Assembly: GCF_003815535.1 (NCBI RefSeq)
Contig: NZ_RPFZ01000001.1
Location: 434,001-498,000, forward strand
DNA from: Aurantiacibacter spongiae
GTDB lineage: Bacteria > Pseudomonadota > Alphaproteobacteria > Sphingomonadales > Sphingomonadaceae
Direction: 5' to 3'
DNA length: 64,000 bases
Each line of letters starts with the position of its first letter. Position 1 is the stretch's first letter. A program made the translations under genes and the position numbers. The notes beneath the pieces were generated by a model that was not told where the DNA came from, ran no database searches, and saw only the letters and a program-made list of their open reading frames with translations. Below, piece by piece: positions 961 to 15,306 of the stretch.

Positions 961-1698
961 ATGACCAGATCGCTGTTTCGCCTCAACCCCGATCTCGACC
1001 GGGAAACGCTGGCCCGGGACTTCGCCCGCGACCGGCGGCTGCAGATCTCCGATATCCTTACCGACGAGACTGCACGAGAACTCAGAGCCATCATGATGGA
1101 GGCAACGCCCTGGGGGATCGCCGTCCAGGCCGGCGCCGATGCAGAACCCCGCTCATGGCCGGCCGACCAGCTGCGCGATCGCGCGGTCGGCAACGAGGTT
1201 GTCGAAATGGTCAGGCGGACCGACAAGGCCGCGGCGGAGCGCGATTACGCCTTCCGCTCCCACCGGTATTCGCTGGTCGAGGCGGTACAGAAGGGATGGG
1301 ATCCGGGGGGGCCCTACGAAATCCTTCTTGAGCATCTCAACGCGCCCGATTTCCTCGGGCTGATGCGCGAGGTGACGGGTATCGCAGAGCTGGCGAAGGC
1401 GGATGGCAATGCCAGTTGCTTCGGCCCCCAGCACTTCCTCGGACGGCATCAGGACAGTCACGTCGGTGAAGGCTGGCGCATCGCCTACGTCCTCAACATG
1501 ACGATCGACGACTGGTATCCGGACTGGGGCGGCTACCTCGTCTTCTTCGACGACAACGGCGATATGAAGAAGGGTTACATGCCCTGTTTCAACACGCTGA
1601 ACCTGTTTGCCGTGCCGCAGGCCCACGCGGTCACCTATGTCCCGCCTTTCGCGCCGAGAGGGCGGTACGCGATCAGCGGCTGGTTGCGCGACCGGTGA
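961..1698 (+). CDS. 2OG-Fe(II) oxygenase (prolyl 4-hydroxylase-like)
   Basis: A protein of 245 aa with the double-stranded beta-helix signature of 2-oxoglutarate/Fe(II) dioxygenases: proximal metal triad 'GRHQDSH' (His163, Asp165), distal His222 in 'QAHAVTYV', and the 2OG-binding Arg235 in 'GRYAISGW'. Such enzymes hydroxylate a C-H bond while decarboxylating 2-oxoglutarate. The substrate cannot be read from sequence. There is no signal peptide, so it is cytoplasmic. Its TGA overlaps the GTG of the next gene, making it the first member of a three-gene operon with a second 2OG oxygenase and a methyltransferase. Confidence 0.85.
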   Translation: MTRSLFRLNPDLDRETLARDFARDRRLQISDILTDETARELRAIMMEATPWGIAVQAGADAEPRSWPADQLRDRAVGNEVVEMVRRTDKAAAERDYAFRSHRYSLVEAVQKGWDPGGPYEILLEHLNAPDFLGLMREVTGIAELAKADGNASCFGPQHFLGRHQDSHVGEGWRIAYVLNMTIDDWYPDWGGYLVFFDDNGDMKKGYMPCFNTLNLFAVPQAHAVTYVPPFAPRGRYAISGWLRDR

Positions 1699-3383
1699 CG
1701 ACTGCCCCCGACGACTACCGCGTTCGCGCGCAGCGTCTGGCGCAGGCGGGGGATCGGCACGGCGCGCTCGAGGTGATGGCGCGGGGCGTTCAACAGCACC
1801 CCCGAGACGCCGCGATGGCCAACAGCGCGGGAAATGCAGCCATGCGGGCCGGGGCGTTCGAACGGGCGGAAGGCTTCTTCGCTCGCGCGTGCGATCTTGC
1901 TCGCGGCCATGTCGAATATGCGGTCAACCGGGCGATTGCGCTTGGTCGGCTGGAGCGGAACCGCGAAGCGCTGACCATTCTTTCTGCGATCGAAGGGCAC
2001 GCCGCCAGGGATGCCCGCTATTGTTCAACGCGGGCGACCGCGGCGCGCGGGGTGGGCGATCTGGCGCAGGCGGCTGCCTGGTACGATCGCAGCATCGCGC
2101 TCGCGCCGACCGGTGCGCGGGCGCTGCATGGCCGCGCGCGCATTGCCGTCGAGCGGGGCGAGGATGATGCCGTCGCCCGTTTCGAACGCGCTCTCGAGGT
2201 CAATGCTGGCGATGCGGAGGCATGGCTGGGACTGGCCGAAGCGCTGGATGCCGAGGGCAATTCCGCCCGCGCCGCGGACATCGCGGAACAGCTCGCCGCG
2301 CAGGCGCCGGGCTGGATACCGGCGCTGCGCTTCGCGGCGCAGTTGCGCCTGGCGCGGGGCGAGGACGACTTCGATCGCCCTTTCTCCCAGGCATCGATGG
2401 CCCGGCCGGACGATCCGGAAATCGCCGCAGAACATATCGCCGTTCTCGAACGACACGAGAAGTTCTCGGAAGCCCTCGAAAAAGCCGAGACCGCCTACCG
2501 GCGCTTTCCCGACGATCCACGCTTCGCGCTCCTGGCTGCTGACGCCGCCAGTACTGCGGGCAAGACCTGCCGGGCGGATGACCTGTTCGACCGGGTGCCG
2601 CCCGAAACGCCGGGACGCCGGCTTCTGGAGGCACGCCATCACCTTCGGCAAGGCCGGCCCGGGAAGACCGATGGCGTGCTGGAGCGTCTTCTTCGGGAGG
2701 AGCCCGACAATATCGGAGCCTGGGCCGTCCGCGACCTGGCCTGGCGGATGATGGATGACGACAGGGCCGAATGGCTGCACGGACAGGACGGTCTCGTCCA
2801 GATGGTCGAGCTACCCGCGGCCGACCTCGTTCTGGCCGGCACCGTTCCCCTGCTGCACGACCTGCACGACCACGCGGCGTTTCCGCTGGGTCAATCGCTT
2901 CGGGGTGGAACGCAGACGCGCGGCCGGCTGTTCGACCGGACCGAGCCGGCTTTGACACGGCTGCACGCTGCCCTTTGCGATGCACTCGTTGACTTCAGGA
3001 ACCGCCTTCCCCCGGCCGATCCCGATCACCCGCTGCTGCGCCACCGCGACGCGGGCTGGGTCATCGCGCGGGCCTGGTCGGTGCGCTTGTCGGGCGGCGG
3101 GGATCGTCATGCGGGCCATATCCACCCCGAGGGCATCGTTTCCTCCGCGCTTTACTGCGACCTTCCGGAACACGGCGACCCTTCGTCGCAAGACGGCTGG
3201 ATCGAACTTGGACGCCCGCCCCGCCATCTCGTCGACCTGCCGCCGCTCCGGACGCTCGAACCACGCAAGGGTAGGCTCGCTTTGTTTCCCAGCACGCTCT
3301 ACCACGGCACCCGCCCCTTTCCCTCCGGATGGCGAATGACGGTCGCGTTCGATGTCGCTCCGGCCAGCGAGGGCGAACCATGA
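1695..3383 (+). CDS. TPR-repeat protein fused to a C-terminal 2OG-Fe(II) oxygenase domain
   Basis: A protein of 562 aa from GTG 1695, overlapping the previous stop by four bases (GTGA). Residues 1 to about 330 are TPR-like helical repeats ('AQAAAWYDRSIALAPTGARA', 'AVARFERALEVNAGDAEAWL'). The C-terminal ~200 residues match the 2OG-Fe(II)_5 type (PF13759): 'HAGHIHP' at 472-478, 'SSALYCDLPE', distal His537 in 'LYHGTRPF', then 'WRMTVAFDV'. A TPR arm on an oxygenase suggests the substrate is a protein or peptide held by the repeats, which is inference. It is translationally coupled on both sides. Confidence 0.85.
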   Translation: MTTAPDDYRVRAQRLAQAGDRHGALEVMARGVQQHPRDAAMANSAGNAAMRAGAFERAEGFFARACDLARGHVEYAVNRAIALGRLERNREALTILSAIEGHAARDARYCSTRATAARGVGDLAQAAAWYDRSIALAPTGARALHGRARIAVERGEDDAVARFERALEVNAGDAEAWLGLAEALDAEGNSARAADIAEQLAAQAPGWIPALRFAAQLRLARGEDDFDRPFSQASMARPDDPEIAAEHIAVLERHEKFSEALEKAETAYRRFPDDPRFALLAADAASTAGKTCRADDLFDRVPPETPGRRLLEARHHLRQGRPGKTDGVLERLLREEPDNIGAWAVRDLAWRMMDDDRAEWLHGQDGLVQMVELPAADLVLAGTVPLLHDLHDHAAFPLGQSLRGGTQTRGRLFDRTEPALTRLHAALCDALVDFRNRLPPADPDHPLLRHRDAGWVIARAWSVRLSGGGDRHAGHIHPEGIVSSALYCDLPEHGDPSSQDGWIELGRPPRHLVDLPPLRTLEPRKGRLALFPSTLYHGTRPFPSGWRMTVAFDVAPASEGEP

Positions 3384-4297
3384 CCTCGAATGTTCATGAC
3401 GCCTGGACCACGTTCTGGGAGCGCGACGCCCTGCACAGAAAAAGCGGCCGCAGACGCGATCCGGAGGGATGGAAGGGCATCGGTGCGGTTCAGACTGGCG
3501 TCTGGCAGACCTTCGCACGGCGCCTAGACAAGGGCGTCAGGGTGCTCGACATCGCAACCGGTGACGGGCGGGTGCTGGGCGATATTCAGAGCGCCCGCCG
3601 CGATCTGAAGCTGGTCGGCACGGACCGCGCCGCCGCCCTTCCCGAAGGCCCGCGCGGGGTAAGGTTGCGCGGCGGGGTACGGATGGAAAAGCTGCCCTTC
3701 CCCGACACGCGCTTCGCCGCCGTCACCAGCCAGTTCGGCTTCGAATATGGTGACATGCCGGTTATCGCGAAGGAGATCGCCCGCGTGCTGCGCCCCGGGG
3801 GCACGGTCGCGATCATGTCGCATCGGCTCGACGGGCCGATTGTCGCGCATAACCGCGCGCGTCTGGCTCAGATCGCCTGGGCGATCGAGGAACAGGATCT
3901 GCCCGAGATTGCCCGCAGGAACCAGCGCTTGCGAGAGATGGGCGTTGCGGCCCTGCCGCCCGAGATCGCCAGCGCTCCCGAACGCGGGGCGCAGGCGTTC
4001 GGACCGCAATCGGCGGCTTGGGAGATCGCCGAGGCCATTCGCCAAAGCATCGTCATGGGCCGCCAGGACGCGCCGCAAAACGTCATCGCCCTGATCGACG
4101 ACATCGTCGCCCAGGCGATGAACGAGCGCGGTCGCATTGCTTCGCTCGAAATTGCTGCCAGGGCTGCCGATAATGGTGAAGGCGTGGTCAGGGCGCTAAT
4201 GCAGGCCGGACTGACCATAGGACAGCGCGAGCAACTGCGTGATCCGCATAGCGGGCAATTCTTCGCCGATTTCATTAAGGCGACGCTCCCCAAATAG
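3380..4297 (+). CDS. Class I SAM-dependent methyltransferase
   Basis: A protein of 305 aa from ATG 3380, overlapping the previous stop TGA (ATGA). The open frame extends upstream, but the coupled ATG is the natural start. Motif I 'VLDIATGDGRVL' (residues 55-66), an acidic residue in 'LVGTDRA', and the post-I 'EIARVLRPGGTVAIMSH' identify a Rossmann-fold class I methyltransferase of the Methyltransf_11/25 kind. The C-terminal ~130 residues are helical and have no recognised motif. The substrate is unknown. The overlap with the two oxygenase genes suggests one modification pathway. Confidence 0.85.
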   Translation: MTSNVHDAWTTFWERDALHRKSGRRRDPEGWKGIGAVQTGVWQTFARRLDKGVRVLDIATGDGRVLGDIQSARRDLKLVGTDRAAALPEGPRGVRLRGGVRMEKLPFPDTRFAAVTSQFGFEYGDMPVIAKEIARVLRPGGTVAIMSHRLDGPIVAHNRARLAQIAWAIEEQDLPEIARRNQRLREMGVAALPPEIASAPERGAQAFGPQSAAWEIAEAIRQSIVMGRQDAPQNVIALIDDIVAQAMNERGRIASLEIAARAADNGEGVVRALMQAGLTIGQREQLRDPHSGQFFADFIKATLPK

Positions 4298-4366
4298 GTG
4301 CTGACGCCCCGCCAGACAGAGACTTCAAGGGTGACGCACTCCCCGCGCGATCGCCGACCTCCCTAC

Positions 4367-4407
4367 GAAAAGGGGCGGGAGACCCGGAGGTCCCCCGCCC
4401 TTTCTTT
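4367..4407. terminator. Bidirectional intrinsic terminator between convergent genes
   Basis: The arms 'aaaaggggcgggagacc' and 'ggtcccccgcccttt' pair almost fully (one bulge) around a short 'cgga' loop. They are flanked by A residues on one side and 'tttctttc' on the other. It lies between the end of the methyltransferase (4297) and the end of the TonB receptor (4433), so it can stop transcription from both directions. Confidence 0.75.
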
Positions 4408-4432
4408 CGGACTATCGCCCGGCCGGTTCAGC

Positions 4433-7336
4433 TTAGAAGCGGAACAGGACCGATGCGAAGAAGTCGCGGCCCAGCACGTCGTAGACGGTCGGCCAGGTAT
4501 TGGCCTGCTCGGCATTGTTGCGGTCGCCCAGCAGCAGCGAGTTGGTGTTGTTGGTCACCACCCCGTTGGCATCGAACACCGGCGTGGACGGCAGCGTGTC
4601 GAAGATGTTCAGCACACCGGCCGTCAGGCGGACGTTCTCGTTGAAGTCGAACGACAGCGTCAGGTCGAGCAGGTCGTAGGCGCTGATCCGTTCCACGAAG
4701 TAATCCGTGGCGGGATCGTCGTCGTTGACTGCCGACAGGTGGCGCCAGCGGAACGAGGTCGTCAGCGGCCCGTCGGTGAACGTCGCGCGCGAGGTCCACT
4801 TGAACGACGGGGTCGGCGCACCGCAGGTCACGCCGAACTTGCCGGCGCAGCGGATGACGTTGTCCGGATCGTTCTGATCGGGGGCGGTGTCCGCCTTCTC
4901 GAACCAGGTGCCGAGGAACGACAGCTCGAGATCCTGCTCGCCGGTATCGGTGAACAGCGAGAACGGGATCGGCATCGAATACGCCATCTGCAGGTCGATG
5001 CCCGAGGTGGCGAGTTCGGCGACGTTCGCACCGCCAAGCTGCGGCGAGTTCGTCCGGCTGAACGAACCGTCCGGGTTACGCGTGTTGACGAAGCCGGCAC
5101 ACCGCGGATCGTTGAGGTCCCCCGCGGTGAGATAGCACAGGTCCAGCGACGTCTGCAGACCGATGGTCTGAATGGCGTCGTCGACGGTGATGTCGAAATA
5201 GTCCGCCGTCAGCGTGAAGCCCGGGACGAAGCGCGGCTGCAGCACGACACCGAAGGTGTAGCTGTCCGACGTTTCTTCCTGGAGGTTCGGGTTGCCGCCG
5301 ACCTGCACCTGAATCTGCGAGTCGGGCTGGATGCCGGGGGTGCCGACACTGCCGGCCGGAACGCCGTTCGCGATGCACAGGTCACGCAGAGCGCCGGAGG
5401 TGGCCGCCGAGGTGGAGCACGGATCCGTCGCCTGCGGGAAGTTCACGAACGAACCGGCGAACAATTCCGCCACGTTCGGGGCGCGAACCGCACGCTGGTA
5501 CTGACCACGGAAGGTGATGTCCGGGGTCGGGGCGATCTCGATACCGCCGGCATAGGTCCACACGCCGCCGACCGCGTCGAGCGAATAGTCGGAATACCGA
5601 CCGGCGCCCGACAGTTCCACACGGAAACCGCTCTCGGTCTCGAACGGGACGTTCAGCTCGCCGAACACCTCCTTGACGTTGTAGCCGCCCTGGGTCGGTT
5701 CACCGGCGTTGAAGCCGGCGACGTCGCCCGAGGCGAGGAACGTGTCGGGGATGAAGCGCGAGGCGACCTCACGGTATTCGGTACCCAGCGCGAAGCCGAC
5801 CGCCTCGGCCGTACCCAGACGGAAGTCGCCGAACGTGCCCGACACTGCGGCGGAAGCCACCTGCAGTTCGGACTCGTCGCCGTTCTGGGCCTGGATGATG
5901 AACGAATCCACCTGGTCCTGCGTCAGCGAGTTCAGGCCGAACACGTTGATCGGAATTCCGCCATTGGCGACGGCGGTGCCGTCGAGGCCGGCGATGAACT
6001 TCGACAGCGAGGCGTTGCCCTGCTGGATGTTCGCATTCCGGGTGCGCGCATACAGGTAGTAGGCGTCGTAGCTCAGGTAGTTGCCGATCGGGCCGCGGAT
6101 ACCGCCGACCACGCGGAAGGCGTTACGCTCGTCCTGGTTAAGGCGCGGACCGGCCTCGAGCAGGCGACGGTTGACCTGGAACAGGACGGCGCCGTCATTC
6201 GCCTGATCGCCGGTTTCGGTCGCATCGATCTGGCGAAGGTCGGCGACCACGCTCGGATCGAGGAACTGCGACAGCGAATCGATGTCGAGGTTCGCGTTGA
6301 CCTGGATCGGGGTCGGCGCCAGCGCCGCGTTCACCTGGTTGTTGACGTAGCTGACCTCGGTGTAGGCCTCGAGGAACGGGAACACCTCGTAGCTGGCATA
6401 GCCGCCGAGCAGGTAGCGGTCCTGCGGCAGCTGCAGGTAGTTGACCGGGGCGAAGTTGTAGGCATCGGCACCGGTGTAGGGGCGCGCGCTGCCGGCCGGA
6501 TCGAACAGGAAGTTGCCGCCGCCCGCGAACTGCGTGCCGGCGAGCGAACCGTTGCCCTGATAGTTGACGCGCGATTCCGGAATGAAGGACGAACCGCCCT
6601 GCACCAGCGGGTCGCCGCCCAGGTTGAAGGCCGAGAACTCGCGGTCGGCCTGGAAGACCGGCTTGCGGTTGTAGTACTCGCCGTAGACGGTGACGTTACC
6701 GCGGCCATCGGCGAAGTCGCTGCCGATCGCGCCAGTGATCTCGTACCGGTCGCCATCGCCGCGGTCGGTGATCGAGTACTGACCGCCGAATTCGATGCCG
6801 TTCACTTCCTTCAGGCGGAAGTTGACGACGCCGGCCAGAGCGTCCGAACCGTAGACGGCCGACGCACCGCCCGTCACCACGTCGACGCTGTCGATGAGGA
6901 AGGACGGGATGGTGTTGAGATCGACGATCTGGTTGGTATCGTAGAACATCCAGCGGCGACCGTTGACGAGCACGAGGGTGCGCTCCTCGCCCAGACCGCG
7001 CAGGTTCAGCGATGCGGTGCCGTTGCCGGGGTTGTTCGAGTTGGAGGTGATGCCAGGAACGACCTGCGGCAGGGTGTTGACGACGTTCTCGACGTTCACC
7101 GTGCCCGACAGTTCGAATTCCTCGTCCTGCACGACGGCGACCGGGGCGGCGGTCTCGACGTTGCGGCGCTGAATGCGCGAACCGGTGACGACGATCGCCT
7201 CCCCGGGGGTGGACGCGCCCGGCTCGGTCGCCGGTTCGGTCATGCCGTCATCCTGCGCGTAGACCGGGGCGGAAAGCATGGCGGTCGCCATGATCGTGCC
7301 GGTCAGCAGGGAGACCTTTTTCCTGATAATCTGCAT
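4433..7336 (-). CDS. TonB-dependent outer-membrane receptor
   Basis: A protein of 967 aa. The start is ATG 7336, with 'aggag' eight bases upstream; a TTG one codon earlier is less likely. Features are a signal peptide ending 'SAPVYAQ', a TonB-box-like 'GEAIVVTGSRI' near residue 47, a plug domain ('TLVLVNGRRW', 'VDVVTGGASAVYGSDAL', 'GVVNFRL'), a 22-strand barrel region with 'AVRAPNVAELFAG' and 'NLQEETSDSYTFG', and a terminal Phe ('FASVLFRF') typical of BAM substrates. It should import a ligand across the outer membrane using TonB energy. The ligand is unknown. It belongs to the large sphingomonad receptor type often tied to plant- or peptide-derived substrates. Confidence 0.92.
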   Translation of the reverse strand: MQIIRKKVSLLTGTIMATAMLSAPVYAQDDGMTEPATEPGASTPGEAIVVTGSRIQRRNVETAAPVAVVQDEEFELSGTVNVENVVNTLPQVVPGITSNSNNPGNGTASLNLRGLGEERTLVLVNGRRWMFYDTNQIVDLNTIPSFLIDSVDVVTGGASAVYGSDALAGVVNFRLKEVNGIEFGGQYSITDRGDGDRYEITGAIGSDFADGRGNVTVYGEYYNRKPVFQADREFSAFNLGGDPLVQGGSSFIPESRVNYQGNGSLAGTQFAGGGNFLFDPAGSARPYTGADAYNFAPVNYLQLPQDRYLLGGYASYEVFPFLEAYTEVSYVNNQVNAALAPTPIQVNANLDIDSLSQFLDPSVVADLRQIDATETGDQANDGAVLFQVNRRLLEAGPRLNQDERNAFRVVGGIRGPIGNYLSYDAYYLYARTRNANIQQGNASLSKFIAGLDGTAVANGGIPINVFGLNSLTQDQVDSFIIQAQNGDESELQVASAAVSGTFGDFRLGTAEAVGFALGTEYREVASRFIPDTFLASGDVAGFNAGEPTQGGYNVKEVFGELNVPFETESGFRVELSGAGRYSDYSLDAVGGVWTYAGGIEIAPTPDITFRGQYQRAVRAPNVAELFAGSFVNFPQATDPCSTSAATSGALRDLCIANGVPAGSVGTPGIQPDSQIQVQVGGNPNLQEETSDSYTFGVVLQPRFVPGFTLTADYFDITVDDAIQTIGLQTSLDLCYLTAGDLNDPRCAGFVNTRNPDGSFSRTNSPQLGGANVAELATSGIDLQMAYSMPIPFSLFTDTGEQDLELSFLGTWFEKADTAPDQNDPDNVIRCAGKFGVTCGAPTPSFKWTSRATFTDGPLTTSFRWRHLSAVNDDDPATDYFVERISAYDLLDLTLSFDFNENVRLTAGVLNIFDTLPSTPVFDANGVVTNNTNSLLLGDRNNAEQANTWPTVYDVLGRDFFASVLFRF

Positions 7337-7583
7337 CAATTAGCTCCTGGTAAGAGGGCAAACTTGCCGAAAGGGCGGGCGCCCGACGTGTCGCGTGTCG
7401 TGCGATGGCCGTGCCTGTCGTCCGGCCCCACCTTTCTGATTGCGCCAAAAGCACAAACACGACGCACTGCACAATCGTCGATCACCCGGCGGCCTCACGT
7501 CGACAAATGCTGTGACATTTTTGAAACAATGCGCCGTTCATGCGAATGACGGAAACCGGACGGCCCGCGCTCGATACCGGGAA

Positions 7584-7591
7584 TTAACCAT
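7584..7591 (+). promoter_or_regulatory. Candidate CtrA half-site upstream of Flp pilin 1
   Basis: 'ttaaccat' matches the 8-mer half-site reported for CtrA in alphaproteobacteria. It lies 39 bases upstream of the first Flp pilin ATG. CtrA control of pilin genes is established in Caulobacter, but binding here is inference from an 8-mer. Confidence 0.4.
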
Positions 7592-7629
7592 TCGCGGCCT
7601 AGGCTCGCGCCATTCGAGGGAGACTGCGA

Positions 7630-7815
7630 ATGATAACGGCAAGACCAACAAGCGCGATCTGGCACGACGAGACGGGCGCAACCGCTATCGAGTACGGCCT
7701 GATCGCCGCCCTCATCGCTGTAGCCCTGGCCGGCGTGATGATGTCACTCGGCGACAAGGTGGAGACGCAATATGAAGGCGTCGGCGACAAGTACAGCGAA
7801 GCGGCGAACAACTGA
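7630..7815 (+). CDS. Flp family type IVb pilin (copy 1)
   Basis: A protein of 61 aa starting at ATG 7630 with 'gagggag' upstream. It has a short cytoplasmic leader, then the prepilin peptidase site and hydrophobic helix 'GATAIEYGLIAALIAVAL' (cleavage expected after Gly16, with conserved Glu+5 and Tyr+6), and a short polar tail. Flp pilins are the major subunit of Tad/Flp pili used in adhesion. No tad/cpa assembly genes are in the window. It pairs with a second pilin 127 bases downstream with the same core. Confidence 0.93.
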   Translation: MITARPTSAIWHDETGATAIEYGLIAALIAVALAGVMMSLGDKVETQYEGVGDKYSEAANN

Positions 7816-7843
7816 ACGGCGCGCTGACGCGATCACGCGGGCG

Positions 7844-7851
7844 TTAACCAG
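7844..7851 (+). promoter_or_regulatory. Candidate CtrA half-site upstream of Flp pilin 2
   Basis: 'ttaaccag' differs from the CtrA 8-mer by one base. It lies 91 bases before the second pilin ATG, in an otherwise featureless intergenic stretch. The parallel with the site before pilin 1 is the main support. Confidence 0.28.
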
Positions 7852-7942
7852 TTTTCTCAGGAGCGAATTCACCAGCACCGGGTGATGCAGGCGTCATCGG
7901 TCCCCGGGGGATCGTCCCGATCACAGCGAAGGAAGCACAGTC

Positions 7943-8128
7943 ATGTTCGCCATCTTTCACGACCTCGCTCGAGACGAGCAGGGCGCGACCGCCATCGAAT
8001 ACGGCCTGATCGCCGCCCTGATCGCCGTTGCCGCGATTACCGCCCTGCAATCGCTGGGCAACGAATTGTCGGCCACGTTCAACAATGTCGACACCGAACT
8101 GCAGACCGCCAACCAGACGAATCAGTAG
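7943..8128 (+). CDS. Flp family type IVb pilin (copy 2)
   Basis: A protein of 61 aa from ATG 7943. Leader 'MFAIFHDLARDEQG' is followed by 'ATAIEYGLIAALIAVAAI', the same processed N-terminus as copy 1. The mature tails differ ('SLGNELSATFNNVDTEL' here). This suggests two pilins that share one secretion and processing machine but expose different surfaces, or a pilin and a minor pilin. Intergenic spacing allows separate transcription from copy 1. Confidence 0.93.
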   Translation: MFAIFHDLARDEQGATAIEYGLIAALIAVAAITALQSLGNELSATFNNVDTELQTANQTNQ

Positions 8129-8299
8129 GTCGCCACACGATATTGCGGCTTGCCGGCCGGCCAATCTTTAGGCTTAGGAAAGTCCCGCTCACGGCCGCGA
8201 TGGCGACTATTTGGTATAGCTTCGAAGTCCTGCGTGATCTTGCGAATTGACCCGCGATGGGTTTCGCAGGATCACCGGGCTCGAAGTGGAACCAGAACA

Positions 8300-8551
8300 A
8301 TGACCGATCGAATTTCCGGCGAGATCGCAAACCTCAAGAGCGATCGTCGCGCGTTTCTTGCTGCCTGCGGCAAATATTCCGCCACGGTGCCTCCGGTGAT
8401 GACGGCGCTGCTTTCGACCTCCCTGTCCTCGCCAGCCATCGCCAAGTCGGGCGGCGGCGATACCGGTATCAAGGGCGGCGCCGACATCGGCGCGAAGGGT
8501 GCCGACGGGGGGAAGAAGGGCGCCGACGGCGGCAAGACAGGCGGCCACTAG
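8300..8551 (+). CDS. Small Tat/leader-like peptide with Gly-rich tail (copy 1)
   Basis: A protein of 83 aa from ATG 8300. Residues 14-53 are a core shared almost exactly with the gene at 8714: 'SDRRAFLAACGKYSATVPP', then 'MT.LLSTSLSSPAIAKSGGG'. 'DRRAFL' resembles a twin-arginine signal (RRxFL), the stretch up to 'PAIA' could be a weak h-region, and AIA (46-48) could be a signal peptidase site. The tail (about 30 aa) is almost only Gly, Ala, Asp, Lys with repeats of 'GADGGK'/'GAKGADGGK'. Either it is a Tat-exported Gly-rich peptide or a RiPP-type precursor with leader plus core; context (PqqD-like/kinase and nucleotidyltransferase genes downstream) favours a modified peptide. Function unknown. 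Confidence 0.7.
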   Translation: MTDRISGEIANLKSDRRAFLAACGKYSATVPPVMTALLSTSLSSPAIAKSGGGDTGIKGGADIGAKGADGGKKGADGGKTGGH

Positions 8552-8713
8552 GCCTCCTGTCAGACCCCCTTTTCGCGCGTCCGTGCGCAGCGTCGTTTAA
8601 GTCTTAAGGATCACTCGCGCCTATCAAACAGGGTTAACGCATCGTACCGATTGCCGAATTGACGGCGCGGTTCCCGACGGCGAAACTGGCTCGAACCGAA
8701 CGGAGCAGCTATC

Positions 8714-9004
8714 ATGGAAAGCGAAGAATCCCGGACTGGCCTCAGGAGCGATCGACGCTCTTTCCTCGCGGCTTGCGGCAAGTATTCGGCGACCGTTCCA
8801 CCTGCCATGACGATCCTGCTGTCGACCTCGCTCTCCTCTCCGGCCATCGCCAAATCCGGCGGGGGCAACAACGGCAAGGGTCATGGCACGAAGGGCAATA
8901 ACGGTGTCGGTAACGGGATCGACCCCGCGCCCCCGGGCAACCCTCCGATGAATGACGGCCCCGGAAGCTCTCCTGGCAATCCGGGGCGTGGACGGGTAAA
9001 GTAG
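8714..9004 (+). CDS. Small Tat/leader-like peptide with Gly/Asn/Pro-rich tail (copy 2)
   Basis: A protein of 96 aa from ATG 8714. Residues 12-51 repeat the copy 1 core with three changes out of 40 (Ser for Ala after RR, Ala for Val, Ile for Ala). The tail is different: 'GGGNNGKGHGTKGNNGVGNG' then 'PAPPGNPPMNDGPGSSPG', so Gly/Asn then Pro/Gly-rich, ending basic ('GRGRVK'). The conserved N-terminus with a free tail is what a leader or export signal would look like. The tail offers Thr and two Ser as possible acceptors for the kinase-like protein encoded next. No known function. Confidence 0.7.
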   Translation: MESEESRTGLRSDRRSFLAACGKYSATVPPAMTILLSTSLSSPAIAKSGGGNNGKGHGTKGNNGVGNGIDPAPPGNPPMNDGPGSSPGNPGRGRVK

Positions 9005-9098
9005 TCATCTCGCGTTAACAGTCCTGCACCCGGCATCAGACCTCGACGCGGGCGACGAGCGGGAATCGTCTGCACCGGGCGACGGCATCGACCAGACC

Positions 9099-10187
9099 GT
9101 GTCGATAGGCCTGTCGCAAACTTCCCTGCCATTCGCGCTCGAGGGATCGGCCGCGCTGTTCTCCGAAGAACGGCAGGAAATCTACGATCTGGACGGCAGC
9201 GCCGCCGCCGTCGTGGCGGATCTGGTCGAGCCACAACCTCTTGCCGGACTGTATGACAAGTTCGATACCGGCATGCGAAACGGCACCGGGTGGCTCGATG
9301 CCTTCCTGTGCGATCTTTCGGATAAGGGTTTGCTGTCTATCAAGATGGAAACGCGCGGCGCGCATCCCGGCCGGGCGCTGCGTTCGATCCTCCCGTTCGA
9401 TCGGAGCGCGATAAGCCTCGAAGCTTCGCCGGATTGCAGCGCATGGTTTTCCGCCTGGTCGCATCTGCCTCGATCAGCAGGCGCCCCGCTTCGCGCCGTC
9501 GCCGCGCCATGGAGGAAACTCGGAATCGTCACCGTTACCGGGCTTCCAGGCAGGCTCGTTCCCGCCGATCTGTTGCCGGCGGCCTTTCGCTTCCGGGTCG
9601 TCGAGGCGGTGCTCGCGACCAGTTCATCGATCGCACTGCATTGCGCCTCGCTCATAATGGGAAACACGCTCGTCCTGCTGCTGGGCGAACCGGGCGCGGG
9701 TAAATCGACGCTTGCAATGTGCGCCGCGCGAAGGGAAATGCGCCTCGCGGGGGACGATATCGCGCTGATCGACACCGCGCAGGGCGTAATCCGCCCCCTG
9801 CCCCTCCCCCCGACGCTGAAGGAGGGAAGCTGGGATCGCTTCGGCGATGACGCTGGCCCTGCCATCGCCATGCACCGAACCACCCGGCAGGACGGTGTCG
9901 AGGTCGGATACCTTCCCCTGCCCGGATACAGCGCGCCGCCTGAAATCGAACGTTGCGTCTTTGTCGCAATCCAGCGCCGACACGAAGGGGCCGCTGCATT
10001 GCGGGCTGGCCGCAAGCAGGACTTCCTTCGCAGGTTGTGCGCGGATTCCCGCTCGTCTTCGGGACGTGCTTCGGTGGAAGACATGGACGCCATGATCGCC
10101 CTGTTGCAGAAGGGCGACGTGGCTGACCTGACCTATTCCGACGCCAGCGACGCGGCCGACCTGCTGGCCGAACGCCTTGTCCGATAG
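9099..10187 (+). CDS. PqqD-like N-terminus fused to an HprK-like P-loop kinase
   Basis: A protein of 362 aa. The start is GTG 9099; no ATG is available in frame between the previous gene and the conserved region. Residues ~10-82 resemble the PqqD/RRE fold ('EIYDLDGSAAAVVADLV' and 'WLDAFLCDLSDKGLL'). Residues ~165-330 are HPr kinase-like: 'HCASLI', Walker A 'GEPGAGKST' (196-204), and 'LAGDDIALID' (216-225) matching the HprK Asp-Asp motif. There is no PTS gene nearby, so classical HPr phosphorylation is unlikely. HprK homologues in lasso-peptide clusters phosphorylate the peptide (paeninodin type). Here the likely substrates are the two small peptides encoded upstream, which is inference. Confidence 0.72.
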   Translation: MSIGLSQTSLPFALEGSAALFSEERQEIYDLDGSAAAVVADLVEPQPLAGLYDKFDTGMRNGTGWLDAFLCDLSDKGLLSIKMETRGAHPGRALRSILPFDRSAISLEASPDCSAWFSAWSHLPRSAGAPLRAVAAPWRKLGIVTVTGLPGRLVPADLLPAAFRFRVVEAVLATSSSIALHCASLIMGNTLVLLLGEPGAGKSTLAMCAARREMRLAGDDIALIDTAQGVIRPLPLPPTLKEGSWDRFGDDAGPAIAMHRTTRQDGVEVGYLPLPGYSAPPEIERCVFVAIQRRHEGAAALRAGRKQDFLRRLCADSRSSSGRASVEDMDAMIALLQKGDVADLTYSDASDAADLLAERLVR

Positions 10188-11199
10188 CGGCGGAAGATTG
10201 CTGCTGCTGTGCGCCGCCCTGGCGGGCGAACGACCGGCCGACGACGATTGGCCCGCACTCCTGCCGTTGGCGAACCGACTTCTCGTCACCCCCGCCCTCG
10301 CCGCGCTGTTCGACGGCGACAGTCGCATTCCGAGAGACGTGAGGCAGTTCCTAGGGGTCATCGGATCGCGAACGCTCGCCCGCAACACGATGATGCGGGC
10401 GCAGCTCGAAGAGGCGGTTGCCGCCCTTCACGCCCGCGGCATCGTACCCCTGCTGTTCAAGGGGGCCGCCGGCCTCGCGGAGGCCGCCCAGCCGGTCGCC
10501 GGCCGGCTGTTCTGCGATCTCGACCTGCTGATCGCGGACAACGCCGGGGACGATGCCCGTGGGGCCTTGCAGGACTTAGGCTATTGCGTGCTCAATTCCG
10601 CCGGTGGGGAGGCGACATTCTACCGGGAGCGCGATGCCGGGGGGATCGACCTTCATTGCCGCGTTCGCTCGCTGGGCGGGCGACAGCGTTACGCCGACTT
10701 CGAAACGCTCAGCACCGAAAGGCAGCTGGGCGCTGGCGTCGTCCGCCTTCCCCTGCCGCTGCTGCAAGCCGCGCTCGTCATCGGACATGACCAGATACAG
10801 GAACGCGATTACTGGCGCGGACTGGTCGATCTGCGACACCTGCTCGACCTTCGGACCGTCGTGACCGAAACCGGTGCGCTCGACTACGCGGCGCTGGCGA
10901 GGCTGTTCCCCGGCACGACCGCACGCCGCGCACTCGATTGCCAGTTGCTGACGTTGCGCGACCTGTTCGGCGTGCCCCTTCCCGCAGGGTGCGCCCCCGG
11001 GCCGGTCGCGCGGCTGCAATCTCGCCGACGCCTCTGGCAAATGGAGCGTCCGCTGTCGCGGGTGCCGCTGACGGCGATCTCGCTGCTCGTGGATCCGCCC
11101 GTCGGGGCGGTGGCGCGGGCACAGCGCGGATTGCCACCGCGCAAACGGGCGCAATATGTGCGCCGGATGTTCGCCGCCCAGAAGCCCAACAAGGCCTGA
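10177..11199 (+). CDS. Nucleotidyltransferase family protein (NTP_transf_5)
   Basis: A protein of 340 aa, with TTG 10177 as the probable start, overlapping the kinase gene by 11 bases. Motifs of PF14907 are visible: 'VPLLFKGAAGL' (90-100), 'RLFCDLDLLIA' (110-120, the Asp-x-Asp metal site) and 'GIDLHCRV' (156-163). The rest is helical. Members of this family sit in RiPP and exopolysaccharide clusters beside HprK-like and PqqD-like genes, and their reaction is unproven. The overlap says it works with the kinase-like protein. It ends 15 bases before the convergent lepA stop with no obvious terminator. Confidence 0.78.
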   Translation: MSDSGGRLLLLCAALAGERPADDDWPALLPLANRLLVTPALAALFDGDSRIPRDVRQFLGVIGSRTLARNTMMRAQLEEAVAALHARGIVPLLFKGAAGLAEAAQPVAGRLFCDLDLLIADNAGDDARGALQDLGYCVLNSAGGEATFYRERDAGGIDLHCRVRSLGGRQRYADFETLSTERQLGAGVVRLPLPLLQAALVIGHDQIQERDYWRGLVDLRHLLDLRTVVTETGALDYAALARLFPGTTARRALDCQLLTLRDLFGVPLPAGCAPGPVARLQSRRRLWQMERPLSRVPLTAISLLVDPPVGAVARAQRGLPPRKRAQYVRRMFAAQKPNKA

Positions 11200-11214
11200 C
11201 GACGCGGCGGCGCG

Positions 11215-13035
<1,821 letters not shown>

Positions 13036-13041
13036 GCGCCG

Positions 13042-13070
13042 CCATTAGCGGGCCGGATTGCCCCTGTCAG
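13042..13070 (-). promoter_or_regulatory. Candidate lepA promoter immediately upstream of the start codon
   Basis: On the minus strand 'ctgaca', 17 bases, 'taatgg' give a good sigma-70-like pair. The -10 ends six bases before the ATG, so transcription would begin at or next to the A of the start codon. Confidence 0.45.
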
Positions 13071-13083
13071 CAGGATTAGCGGC

Positions 13084-15306
13084 TCAATTGGCCCGCTGCG
13101 AGCTGGAGGTGACATCGACCTGCATGAAGCGCGGCGGGCGCTGGGGACCGTGCCGGTCGCTCTGGATCGAGTAATTGCCCGCCGGCAGCGCGGCCAGCGG
13201 CATTCCCGCAGCCGCGAGCGCGTAAGGCGAAATGCGGTGGCGCGTGCACAGGCCGTCCGCGCCGTCGCTGACCAGCGGAGTCTCGAACGACAGTCCCTGC
13301 GTCGCATCCTGCGAACGGCGCACCTGGCCGACGACGAGCTGCCCCTGCCCCAGATCGAGAACGAGGTCGGTGCCGACGGGAACGTCCAGCAGTCCCTCGA
13401 TCATCGCCCCGGTGCGCGAAAGGTTGCGCAGCAGCGCCTCGTAGTGATGATCCTCGTGGATGACGCCGATGCGCCGGAACACGGAACGGCGCTCCGACCG
13501 GTGCTTGGACGGACCGACGGGTTCGTAGGTGAAATTGCCGTCCTGCAGCTTTTCCATCAGCGTGGCCTGCGGCACCGCGCGCGAGAAGATGAAGCCCTGG
13601 ACGAGCTTCGCGCCGAGGTTCGCGACCAGCTTGAGCTCGTCCATCGCTTCCACCCCCTCGGCGGTCGTGTCCATGCCGGTCGCCTGGGCGAGGCTGACGA
13701 TGGCGGTTATGATCGCGGCGTTGGAATTGCTGTCCTCGGTACAGCCGCGCACGAAGCTCTGGTCGATCTTGATCTTGTCGAACGGCGCCTTTTTCAGATA
13801 GCCGAGCGAGGAATAGCCGGTGCCGAAATCGTCCAGCGCCAGACGCACGCCGATCTTCTTGAGTTCGCCGAACATCTTCTCGACCGCGTAGGTGTCGCCC
13901 ATGAACACGCTCTCGGTCACCTCGAGTTCGAGCCGCGCGGGATCGAGACCGGACGCGGCGAGCGCGTTCGACACCGTGCGGGGCAGCTCGTCCGAACTGA
14001 ACTGCTGCGCCGATACGTTGACGGCGACACCTATGGTATCGGGCCATTCGGCCGCATCCCGGCACGCCTGCTTCATCGCCCATTCGCCGATGGCGACGAT
14101 GAGGTTGCTGTCTTCGGCGATGGGGATGAAGGTTGCCGGGCTGATATAGCCGCGTTCCGGGTGGTTCCAGCGCATCAGCGCCTCGAATCCGCGAACCTTG
14201 TAGGTCTTCGCATCGACGCAGGGCTGGTAATGCATTTCCAGATCACCGCGGGCGAGCGCGTCGCGCAGCTCCTCCTCGATTTCCCGCCGGTCCTGCGCCG
14301 AATCCTTGAGGTCGTTCGAATAGAAGCGGTACTGGCCCCTGCCGCCGCCCTTCGCCGCATACAGGGCAAGGTCCGCCGCCTTCACCAGTTCGTCCGGCTC
14401 GATCCCGTCATACGGGGCGACGGCGATCCCCACCGACGTTCCGATGATCGCCCGCGACCCTTCGATCGAATAGGGCTGGGAAATCATCTGAATGGTGCGC
14501 AGGGCGATATCGCCCAGCTTCCCGCGGTCGTCGACATCGGGCAGGATCAGCTGGAATTCGTCGCCGCCCAGCCGGCCGATCTCGGTTCCCTCGGGCACCA
14601 CGCGCTCGAGCCGCTGCGAAACCTGTCGCAGCAGCTCATCGCCCGCCGGGTGGCCGAGCGTGTCGTTGACCTGCTTGAAGCGGTCGAGATCCAGCATCAT
14701 GATCGCGCAGGATCGCTGTTCCACCCGGTATGCGTTGAGCGTCGCGGCCAGCCGCTTGCTCATACGGTGGCGGTTGGAAAGACCGGTGAGCGAATCGTAT
14801 TCGGCAAGGCGCGAGGACGTGACCTGCTCTTCGTAGGAAGCCGTGATGTCCTTCACGCTTCCTCGATAGCCCAGGAAGTTCTGTTCGCCGTCATAGGCAG
14901 GCTTGCCCGAAAGCGCCCACCACACATCCTTGCCCCCGGCGCCGATGAGGCGAACCCGCAGATCGGAAAACTTCGTGCGCGCGCTGATGAGGAAGGAAAA
15001 CGGCCGAGTCTGTCCTTCGGAATCCTCGTCTGGCCGCGTCTCCACGAGCGTGCCGATCTGTTCGCCGATCACACGGCGGTCCTCGCCGAAACAGGCAATG
15101 GCGGAAGGGGAGAGATAAATGAGGCGGTTGTGGGGATCGGTCGCCCACAGCCAGACGGTGCCGGATTGCTCGAAACTGTCGATGATCGACAGCCGCTCGC
15201 TGTCGGACAGCGACGTAAGCCCGGCCGCGGTCGCCTCCGCATCGGGCACGCGAACCGGATCGGTGCGCTGCGCGCCGAATGTCCTGAACATGCCGCGAAC
15301 GTCCAT
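13084..15306 (-). CDS. Soluble PAS-GGDEF-EAL-PilZ cyclic-di-GMP protein
   Basis: A protein of 740 aa. Order: PAS (about 40-155), GGDEF (165-330, 'RLGGDEF' at 245-251), EAL (345-590, 'GFEALMRW' at 373-380, with 'NVSAQQF', 'ELEVTES', 'LDDFGTG', 'KIDQSF' and 'AEGVE' all intact), PilZ-like (625-735, 'RNLSRTGAMIEG'). Both catalytic centres look active, so it could make and break c-di-GMP. The I-site 'RxxD' before GGDEF is absent ('PEGTEIGR'), so product inhibition through that site is unlikely, and the C-terminal PilZ may sense instead. No membrane segment is seen. It is paralogous to the next gene upstream. Confidence 0.92.
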   Translation of the reverse strand: MDVRGMFRTFGAQRTDPVRVPDAEATAAGLTSLSDSERLSIIDSFEQSGTVWLWATDPHNRLIYLSPSAIACFGEDRRVIGEQIGTLVETRPDEDSEGQTRPFSFLISARTKFSDLRVRLIGAGGKDVWWALSGKPAYDGEQNFLGYRGSVKDITASYEEQVTSSRLAEYDSLTGLSNRHRMSKRLAATLNAYRVEQRSCAIMMLDLDRFKQVNDTLGHPAGDELLRQVSQRLERVVPEGTEIGRLGGDEFQLILPDVDDRGKLGDIALRTIQMISQPYSIEGSRAIIGTSVGIAVAPYDGIEPDELVKAADLALYAAKGGGRGQYRFYSNDLKDSAQDRREIEEELRDALARGDLEMHYQPCVDAKTYKVRGFEALMRWNHPERGYISPATFIPIAEDSNLIVAIGEWAMKQACRDAAEWPDTIGVAVNVSAQQFSSDELPRTVSNALAASGLDPARLELEVTESVFMGDTYAVEKMFGELKKIGVRLALDDFGTGYSSLGYLKKAPFDKIKIDQSFVRGCTEDSNSNAAIITAIVSLAQATGMDTTAEGVEAMDELKLVANLGAKLVQGFIFSRAVPQATLMEKLQDGNFTYEPVGPSKHRSERRSVFRRIGVIHEDHHYEALLRNLSRTGAMIEGLLDVPVGTDLVLDLGQGQLVVGQVRRSQDATQGLSFETPLVSDGADGLCTRHRISPYALAAAGMPLAALPAGNYSIQSDRHGPQRPPRFMQVDVTSSSQRAN

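Follow-up and report, generated by a model that had tools for sequence, protein, structure and literature searches.

A cassette in the genome of Aurantiacibacter spongiae encodes a peptide-kinase-nucleotidyltransferase system that is real and widely spread, and of which no description was found in the literature searched (open-licence papers). It occupies positions 8300-11199 of the window, the 64,000-nucleotide stretch from 434,001 to 498,000 of contig NZ_RPFZ01000001.1, and consists of four open reading frames (ORFs) on the positive strand: two small peptides, a PqqD/HprK-like fusion kinase, and an NTP_transf_5 nucleotidyltransferase (NTase). At a probability of roughly 55%, we favour a leader-guided peptide modification system in which the kinase phosphorylates the peptide, the NTase decorates it, and the peptide is exported. 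The features are as follows; RRE denotes the recognition element of ribosomally synthesized and post-translationally modified peptides (RiPPs), and RR the twin-arginine motif.

8300..8551, + strand: peptide 1, 83 residues; conserved leader, then a Gly/Lys/Asp tail of the DTGIKGGAD type
8339..8458 (G000:C1:442339-442458 in genome numbering), + strand: conserved core of peptide 1, 40 residues, with the RR motif, VPPxMTxLLSTSLSSP and AIA-KS
8447..8449, + strand: Ser50 of peptide 1, proposed phospho-acceptor; near-invariant Ser two residues past AIA
8714..9004, + strand: peptide 2, 96 residues; leader as in peptide 1, tail KGNNGVGNGIDPAPPGNPPMNDGPGSSPGNPG
8747..8866, + strand: conserved core of peptide 2, 40 residues, matching the core
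8855..8857, + strand: Ser48 of peptide 2, proposed phospho-acceptor; same Ser column as Ser50
9099..10187, + strand: PqqD/RRE-like and HprK-like fusion kinase, 362 residues, GTG start
9099..9374, + strand: PqqD-like (RRE-like) N-terminal domain, approximately residues 1-92; profile match to TfuB1/TbiB1
9624..10169, + strand: HprK-like kinase domain, approximately residues 176-357; H181, G199, G201, K202, D219 and D220 invariant in 18 relatives
10177..11199, + strand: NTP_transf_5 (PF14907) nucleotidyltransferase, 340 residues, TTG start; K95-G96, D114xD116 and H204 invariant in 19 relatives

The initial annotation, made from the letters of the window, described two adjacent small genes with a common 40-residue core, and both are present. 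The shared sequence (DRRxFLAACGKYSATVPPxMTxLLSTSLSSPAIAKSGGG) differs at three residues between the peptides, and it is both translated and constrained, because 23 of the 27 nucleotide differences fall at third codon positions (2/2/23 over positions 1/2/3) and 20 of the 23 changed codons are silent, the other three being replacements. No accepted Pfam or NCBIfam family covers any of the eight peptides tested (0/8). Neither database matched the window pair at E ≤ 1, nor did PADLOC at E ≤ 0.01; for six relatives, NCBIfam gave nothing at E ≤ 0.01, and the one Pfam match, at E 0.09, is below cut-off and at chance level.

A set of 68 peptides was compiled from 77 hits by removing those with E > 1e-6, exact duplicates, and four that lacked the RR motif; all 68 thus carry the motif, RR-less hits having been excluded. 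A Ser two residues past AxA (the AIAxS column) is found in 64 of the 68, and the four exceptions comprise one that keeps the Ser with a shift, two divergent sequences, and one truncated frame. Among the other hydroxyl columns, the Thr after PPxx is Ser or Thr in 94%, the STS segment in 78-84%, and the Ser before xAIA in 88%. The AIAxS Ser is the best candidate phospho-acceptor because it is near-invariant and because 14 of the 68 peptides, one of them a truncated frame, have at most one Ser/Thr in the tail beyond it. An AxA-like site is present in 61/67 leaders. The LAAC segment resembles a lipobox, however a lipoprotein reading was rejected because Cys is present at that column in only 52/68 peptides.

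The tails of peptides 1 and 2 differ from each other, in keeping with the initial annotation, which had called these Gly-rich tails unrelated, but they are not one-offs, since similar tails recur elsewhere in the class. That of peptide 2 is found in other families of the class, and tails resembling that of peptide 1 (DTGIK/DSGVK) were recognized by eye in two other loci (L034 and L032). NNGxGN occurs in 31/68 tails and a GWG..NH-like motif in 6/68; by eye, the remainder are poly-Gly, Arg/Asp-rich or Lys/Arg-rich. The tail was rejected as a general motif, a profile of the peptide 2-type tail (A6) having matched the window genome alone among 195 class genomes. Fifteen different residues occupy the last position (Arg in 27/68, Ser in 2/68), with His and Lys closing the two window peptides. 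Broken and truncated copies of the peptide, with a split frame or loss of the RR part, were also observed (L182, L106 and L105) and suggest precursor turnover.

The fusion of PqqD-like and HprK-like domains, predicted in the initial annotation, is borne out by an 18-row kinase profile, which matches the lasso proteins TfuB1 (E 4.5e-7) and TbiB1 (E 2.3e-6) within profile positions 9-92 (spans 9-90 and 11-92) and HPr kinases across the C-terminal part. Pfam PqqD (PF05402) is found in 7/18 kinases at E ≤ 0.01. As a single sequence, the window kinase scores 17.5 bits against Hpr_kinase_C (cut-off 33.3), and its PqqD part has no match in the NCBIfam and Pfam scans. Residues H181, G199, G201, K202, D219, D220, K241, R263 and D265 are invariant in the 18-member alignment, and H181-K202-D219-D220 correspond to the His-Lys-Asp-Asp set reported for lasso-type tailoring kinases. 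A structure model (predicted local distance difference test score, pLDDT, 87.4; predicted template modelling score, pTM, 0.85), mostly confident in its N-terminal domain, was matched by Foldseek to phosphoenolpyruvate carboxykinase (E 3.3e-7) and HPr kinase (E 4.6e-4), with TM-scores below 0.5. Judged by its sequence, the N-terminal domain is RRE-like and is predicted to read the leader.

The gene for the second enzyme overlaps the kinase gene by 11 nt, and its assignment to NTP_transf_5 holds, with 83.6 bits against PF14907 (gathering score 31.2). All 19 aligned NTases match this family and share invariant K95-G96, R110, D114xD116 (DxD) and H204. The AlphaFold model (pLDDT 89.3) has a nucleotidyltransferase fold, and its top Foldseek match is MenT1 (E 5.4e-4). 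This match, and two weak defence-library matches over the kinase P-loop (mad8, E 8.9e-5; TRIP13, E 0.007), would fit a toxin-antitoxin or phage-defence module in which the NTase is the toxin and the small genes encode the antitoxins. However, the antibiotic NTases ANT(2'')-Ia and LnuA match the model comparably, suggesting a generic fold match, and the defence library returned nothing for the NTase or the peptides. The peptides also look exported from their sequence, no phage record matches peptide 2, and several genomes carry solo peptides distant from the NTase. Such a module is highly improbable, and was rejected because the matches are weak and generic. As a separate observation, locus L128 (G627:C1:257000-276000) contains a single open frame of 764 residues matching both the kinase and NTase profiles, an apparent natural fusion.

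The core peptide was found in 43 of 50 kinase-bearing loci, most of these loci having been found through the peptide, with two (L040 and L052) representing the same plasmid and several others closely related. In a kinase-first search, the kinase of locus L103, itself peptide-linked, matched 27 plasmid records. A peptide frame lies within ~1.3 kb in 17/17 of the plasmid loci examined (including Leisingera and Parasedimentitalea), of which 15 were fetched by the kinase alone and two first via the peptide, the ten records left out including six from Leisingera. The frame is broken in one of the 17 (L182) and divergent in another (L140). Gene arrangement varies: most Sphingomonadales loci place the peptide gene upstream of the kinase in the same orientation, most Sinorhizobium/Ensifer loci place it downstream, and the two genes lie on opposite strands in L097, L099, L101, L112 and L114. 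The refuting condition named in the initial annotation, a neighbourhood absent from all relatives, does not hold, since linkage of the peptide with the kinase and the NTase is seen in many loci, although not in 11 other listed genomes of the same genus.

Seven of the 50 kinase loci are without the core peptide. In L126 an RRKFLKKAG-type peptide is cut off at the end of the locus (E 0.0024), L129 and L130 share their contigs with peptides ~50 and ~63 kb away, and the peptide of L131 sits on a different contig; L132 is apparently part of one kinase split across two contigs, the other end of which (L114) has the peptide, and no peptide was found in L127 or L128. Across 24 hand-picked peptide-bearing genomes, a set that excludes weak hits of the family search and three weak ones of the phylum search, a kinase match is present in 20 at E ≤ 1e-40 and in 22 at E ≤ 1e-10. 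Core matches outnumber kinase matches in some genomes (6 and 1 in G966, 4 and 1 in G951, 3 and 1 in G753), some dispersed core matches being fragments (L106, L105), and peptides distant from the kinase retain the same leader. This is most simply read as one modifier serving several dispersed substrates.

A single-sequence peptide search of 397 family genomes gave matches in 35 at E ≤ 0.01, nine of which, the window genome included, reach E ≤ 1e-6. With the core alignment at E ≤ 0.001, the peptide was found in 11/385 class genomes and 10/398 phylum genomes, samples which overlap and whose weakest hits (e.g., G727, G1052, G1056, G1077) may be false. In the class sample, which includes the window genome, 11 genomes have the peptide and 10 the kinase (both in seven, peptide only in four, kinase only in three), as detected with a kinase model built in part from peptide-linked genes. 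A genome contig scan located 12 loci in Sphingobium, Qipengyuania, Phenylobacterium, Novosphingobium, Sphingomonas and one Hyphomonadaceae bin. Peptide and kinase occur together in named loci of Sphingomonadales, Hyphomonadales (L054), Hyphomicrobiales and Rhodobacterales, and the peptide was seen alone in Caulobacterales (L045, Phenylobacterium). Peptide 2 matches 81 plasmid records, 65 of them from Sinorhizobium; in the 20 of the 81 that were seen, the peptide is unannotated or labelled hypothetical. Three Sinorhizobium megaplasmid loci (L134, L135 and L138) have the peptide and no kinase in the fetched stretch, and the L138 plasmid carries a kinase elsewhere (L178).

The proposed pathway begins with a peptide composed of a constant leader of ~40 residues and a variable, often Gly/Asn-rich tail. 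By domain homology, the PqqD/RRE-like domain of the kinase would bind this leader, both on neighbouring peptides and on solo, distant ones. The HprK-like domain would then phosphorylate the peptide, most likely at the AIAxS Ser (Ser50 of peptide 1, Ser48 of peptide 2), and the NTP_transf_5 enzyme, by analogy with PsmN of lasso peptide clusters, may place a nucleotidyl or sugar group on that phosphate. The leader would double as a Tat- (twin-arginine translocation) or Sec-type signal, with the modified peptide exported and cleaved after AIA to give a Gly-rich extracytoplasmic peptide bearing a modified Ser at position 2. A role of this product at the cell surface is a guess.

Several observations weigh against this pathway. 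No peptide match was found in 11 other listed genomes of the genus Aurantiacibacter, and no peptide was seen near the kinase in two kinase-positive genomes, G474 and G627. Conversely, no kinase match reaches E ≤ 1e-40 in peptide-positive G509, G517, G687 and G727; weaker kinase matches exist in G517 and G727, G687 is 83% complete and the peptide match of G727 is weak, leaving G509 and G517 unexplained. Only six records match the kinase query for the 65 Sinorhizobium plasmid records with the peptide, a count obtained with one query at E ≤ 1e-10 in a plasmid collection without chromosomes. The AIAxS Ser adjoins the presumed cleavage site, and its conservation may serve cleavage. In addition, 13 of 67 leaders carry a charge within the supposed hydrophobic stretch. 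Apart from these, the features of a Tat substrate, namely the RR motif, an uncharged stretch, the AxA site and a TatC gene in the window genome, are present; the AxA site and TatC speak for export.

These Tat-like features would also suit a leader that is merely the Tat or Sec signal of small secreted proteins, with the kinase and NTase acting on carbohydrate, nucleotide or HPr and the genes neighbours through a shared surface process such as exopolysaccharide control. Of the 50 kinase loci, 13 do have relatives of polysaccharide or surface proteins (eight queries) close to the kinase, and the 23 hits over 629 kb, a count that includes self-hits, compare with two in a 109-kb control; however, the queries themselves were drawn from around the kinase and peptide genes and the control is small, so that the association is weak, a lead only, and is not established. 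The leader is also better conserved than would be expected of a bare signal peptide, with a mean pairwise identity over 22 loci with all three genes of 0.63 over its 40 residues, where the kinase reaches 0.29 and the NTase 0.35, the leader value being inflated by the choice of loci mostly through leader similarity, which counts against the modification pathway. The kinase furthermore has an RRE-like domain, typical for peptide substrates, and the same leader is found on peptides far from the kinase. We consider a simple secretion signal unlikely, and retain leader-guided modification as the preferred reading.

More tentatively, and with the odds somewhat against it, the system may define a new class of ribosomal peptide. 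Its members would be exported, Gly/Asn-rich and modified at position 2 to a phospho-, phospho-glycosyl or phospho-nucleotidyl-Ser, and one kinase would read the leader of dispersed precursors, that leader being both kinase dock and Tat signal, in a modify-then-export sorting system across Alphaproteobacteria that includes legume-symbiont megaplasmids. If true, this would assign a substrate to HprK-related kinases and PF14907 nucleotidyltransferases of a group that so far lacks one, and would name a family of small exported peptides, those of the Sinorhizobium megaplasmids included. The cassette needs a short peptide, kinase and NTase alone, so docking, site and chemistry should be accessible by simple co-expression.

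Elsewhere in the window, a tandem pair of Flp/Fap pilin genes (7630-8128) lies immediately upstream of the peptide genes. Positions 961-7339 encode in a row a 2-oxoglutarate (2OG)-Fe(II) oxygenase, a TPR plus 2OG oxygenase protein, a methyltransferase and a TonB-dependent receptor, possibly a separate cluster. A promoter and terminator scan gave no promoters, and two terminators against 2.9 expected.

Among known systems, the best available precedent for the proposed chemistry is the kinase and PsmN of paeninodin-type lasso clusters, used here by analogy. PadeK, ThcoK and PsmK are HprK-like kinases and PsmN is of the PF14907 kind. According to the review PMC9266682, the tailoring kinase of paeninodin-type clusters phosphorylates a C-terminal Ser, PsmN is needed, directly or indirectly, for the addition of hexoses to the phospho-Ser, and a His-Lys-Asp-Asp set is reported for lasso kinases. 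The cassette resembles these paeninodin/pseudomycoidin-type clusters, where both enzymes act on a ribosomal peptide, in pairing a kinase that has the H-K-D-D set with an annotated nucleotidyltransferase. Unlike them, it has PqqD fused to the kinase and no linked cyclase or B2 protease, and its peptides have a Tat-like leader, a mostly Gly-rich tail and no conserved C-terminal Ser. The absence of a cyclase, B2 protease or transporter nearby, remarked on in the initial annotation, was upheld: none of the three, the transporter sought being of the ATP-binding cassette type, was found in the eight flanking proteins scanned (961-15306), no lasso cyclase (asparagine-synthase-like) in the 12 proteins of the same interval scanned against Pfam, and nothing resembling a cyclase by eye in the recurrent neighbour clusters of other loci (largest 14, some unidentified).

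The window genome does contain a separate lasso-like locus (L184; G000:C1:850500-868500), with a cyclase-like protein that matches the lasso cyclase model at E 3.4e-61 but below its cut-off, a standalone lasso PqqD relative likewise below cut-off, an HprK-like protein, NTP_transf_5, a PF13471 (B2-like) gene, a sulfotransferase-like ORF (by eye), and a 48-residue candidate precursor ending in GGSATS. Its PF13471 gene (C1:857568) and a second one (C1:1605025) both lie more than 400 kb from the cassette. The second, in locus L185 (G000:C1:1592000-1611000), is ~6 kb from an NTP_transf_5 gene, and the locus also has a PqqD-like protein and ORFs resembling dTDP-rhamnose sugar genes by eye. The cassette peptides could in principle be matured to a lasso or other cyclised RiPP by a cyclase and protease supplied in trans from the lasso-like locus, and the presence of these genes fits that idea. 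Maturation in trans is nevertheless very doubtful. An HprK-like protein, a PqqD relative and a candidate precursor very unlike the cassette peptides are already encoded within L184, as many as 15 residues occur at the C-terminal end of the 68 peptides, and no cyclase look-alike was recognized by eye among the recurrent neighbours. A lasso assignment was rejected for want of a cyclase or B2 protease linked within 961-15306 and of a conserved C-terminal Ser; together with the separate lasso-like locus, these leave the lasso version of the initially suggested unusual RiPP or modified exported peptide unsupported. The broader suggestion is consistent with the leader and variable-tail pattern and the RRE-like kinase domain, an encoded precursor with a conserved leader and variable core being a feature of RiPPs in the broad sense.

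The cassette also resembles the HPr-rel-A system (TIGR04352 kinase, TIGR04353 PqqD), in that all 18 aligned kinases match TIGR04352 at E ≤ 0.01 and a PF14907-type NTase adjoins the kinase. It is unlike that system in the score of the window kinase (46.6 bits against a 200-bit cut-off) and in having its PqqD part fused rather than encoded by a separate TIGR04353 gene, a model matched only weakly by 2/18 kinases; membership was rejected on both counts. All seven fetched loci whose kinase exceeds the TIGR04352 cut-off have the NTase next door (7/7), and this peptide is found in none. Nine loci from the TIGR04352 search contain a possible relative of the peptide core in L174 only (E 0.019), where the kinase is below the cut-off. 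In three loci with a kinase above it (L167, L169 and L170), a different RR-leader protein of larger size is encoded upstream and may be the counterpart substrate in that system.

In PEP-CTERM/exosortase-like sorting, one processing enzyme serves many dispersed substrates that have a constant sorting signal and variable bodies. The cassette is similar in its dispersed substrates with a constant signal, and differs in having that constant part at the N-terminus and in using a kinase plus an NTase instead of a protease.

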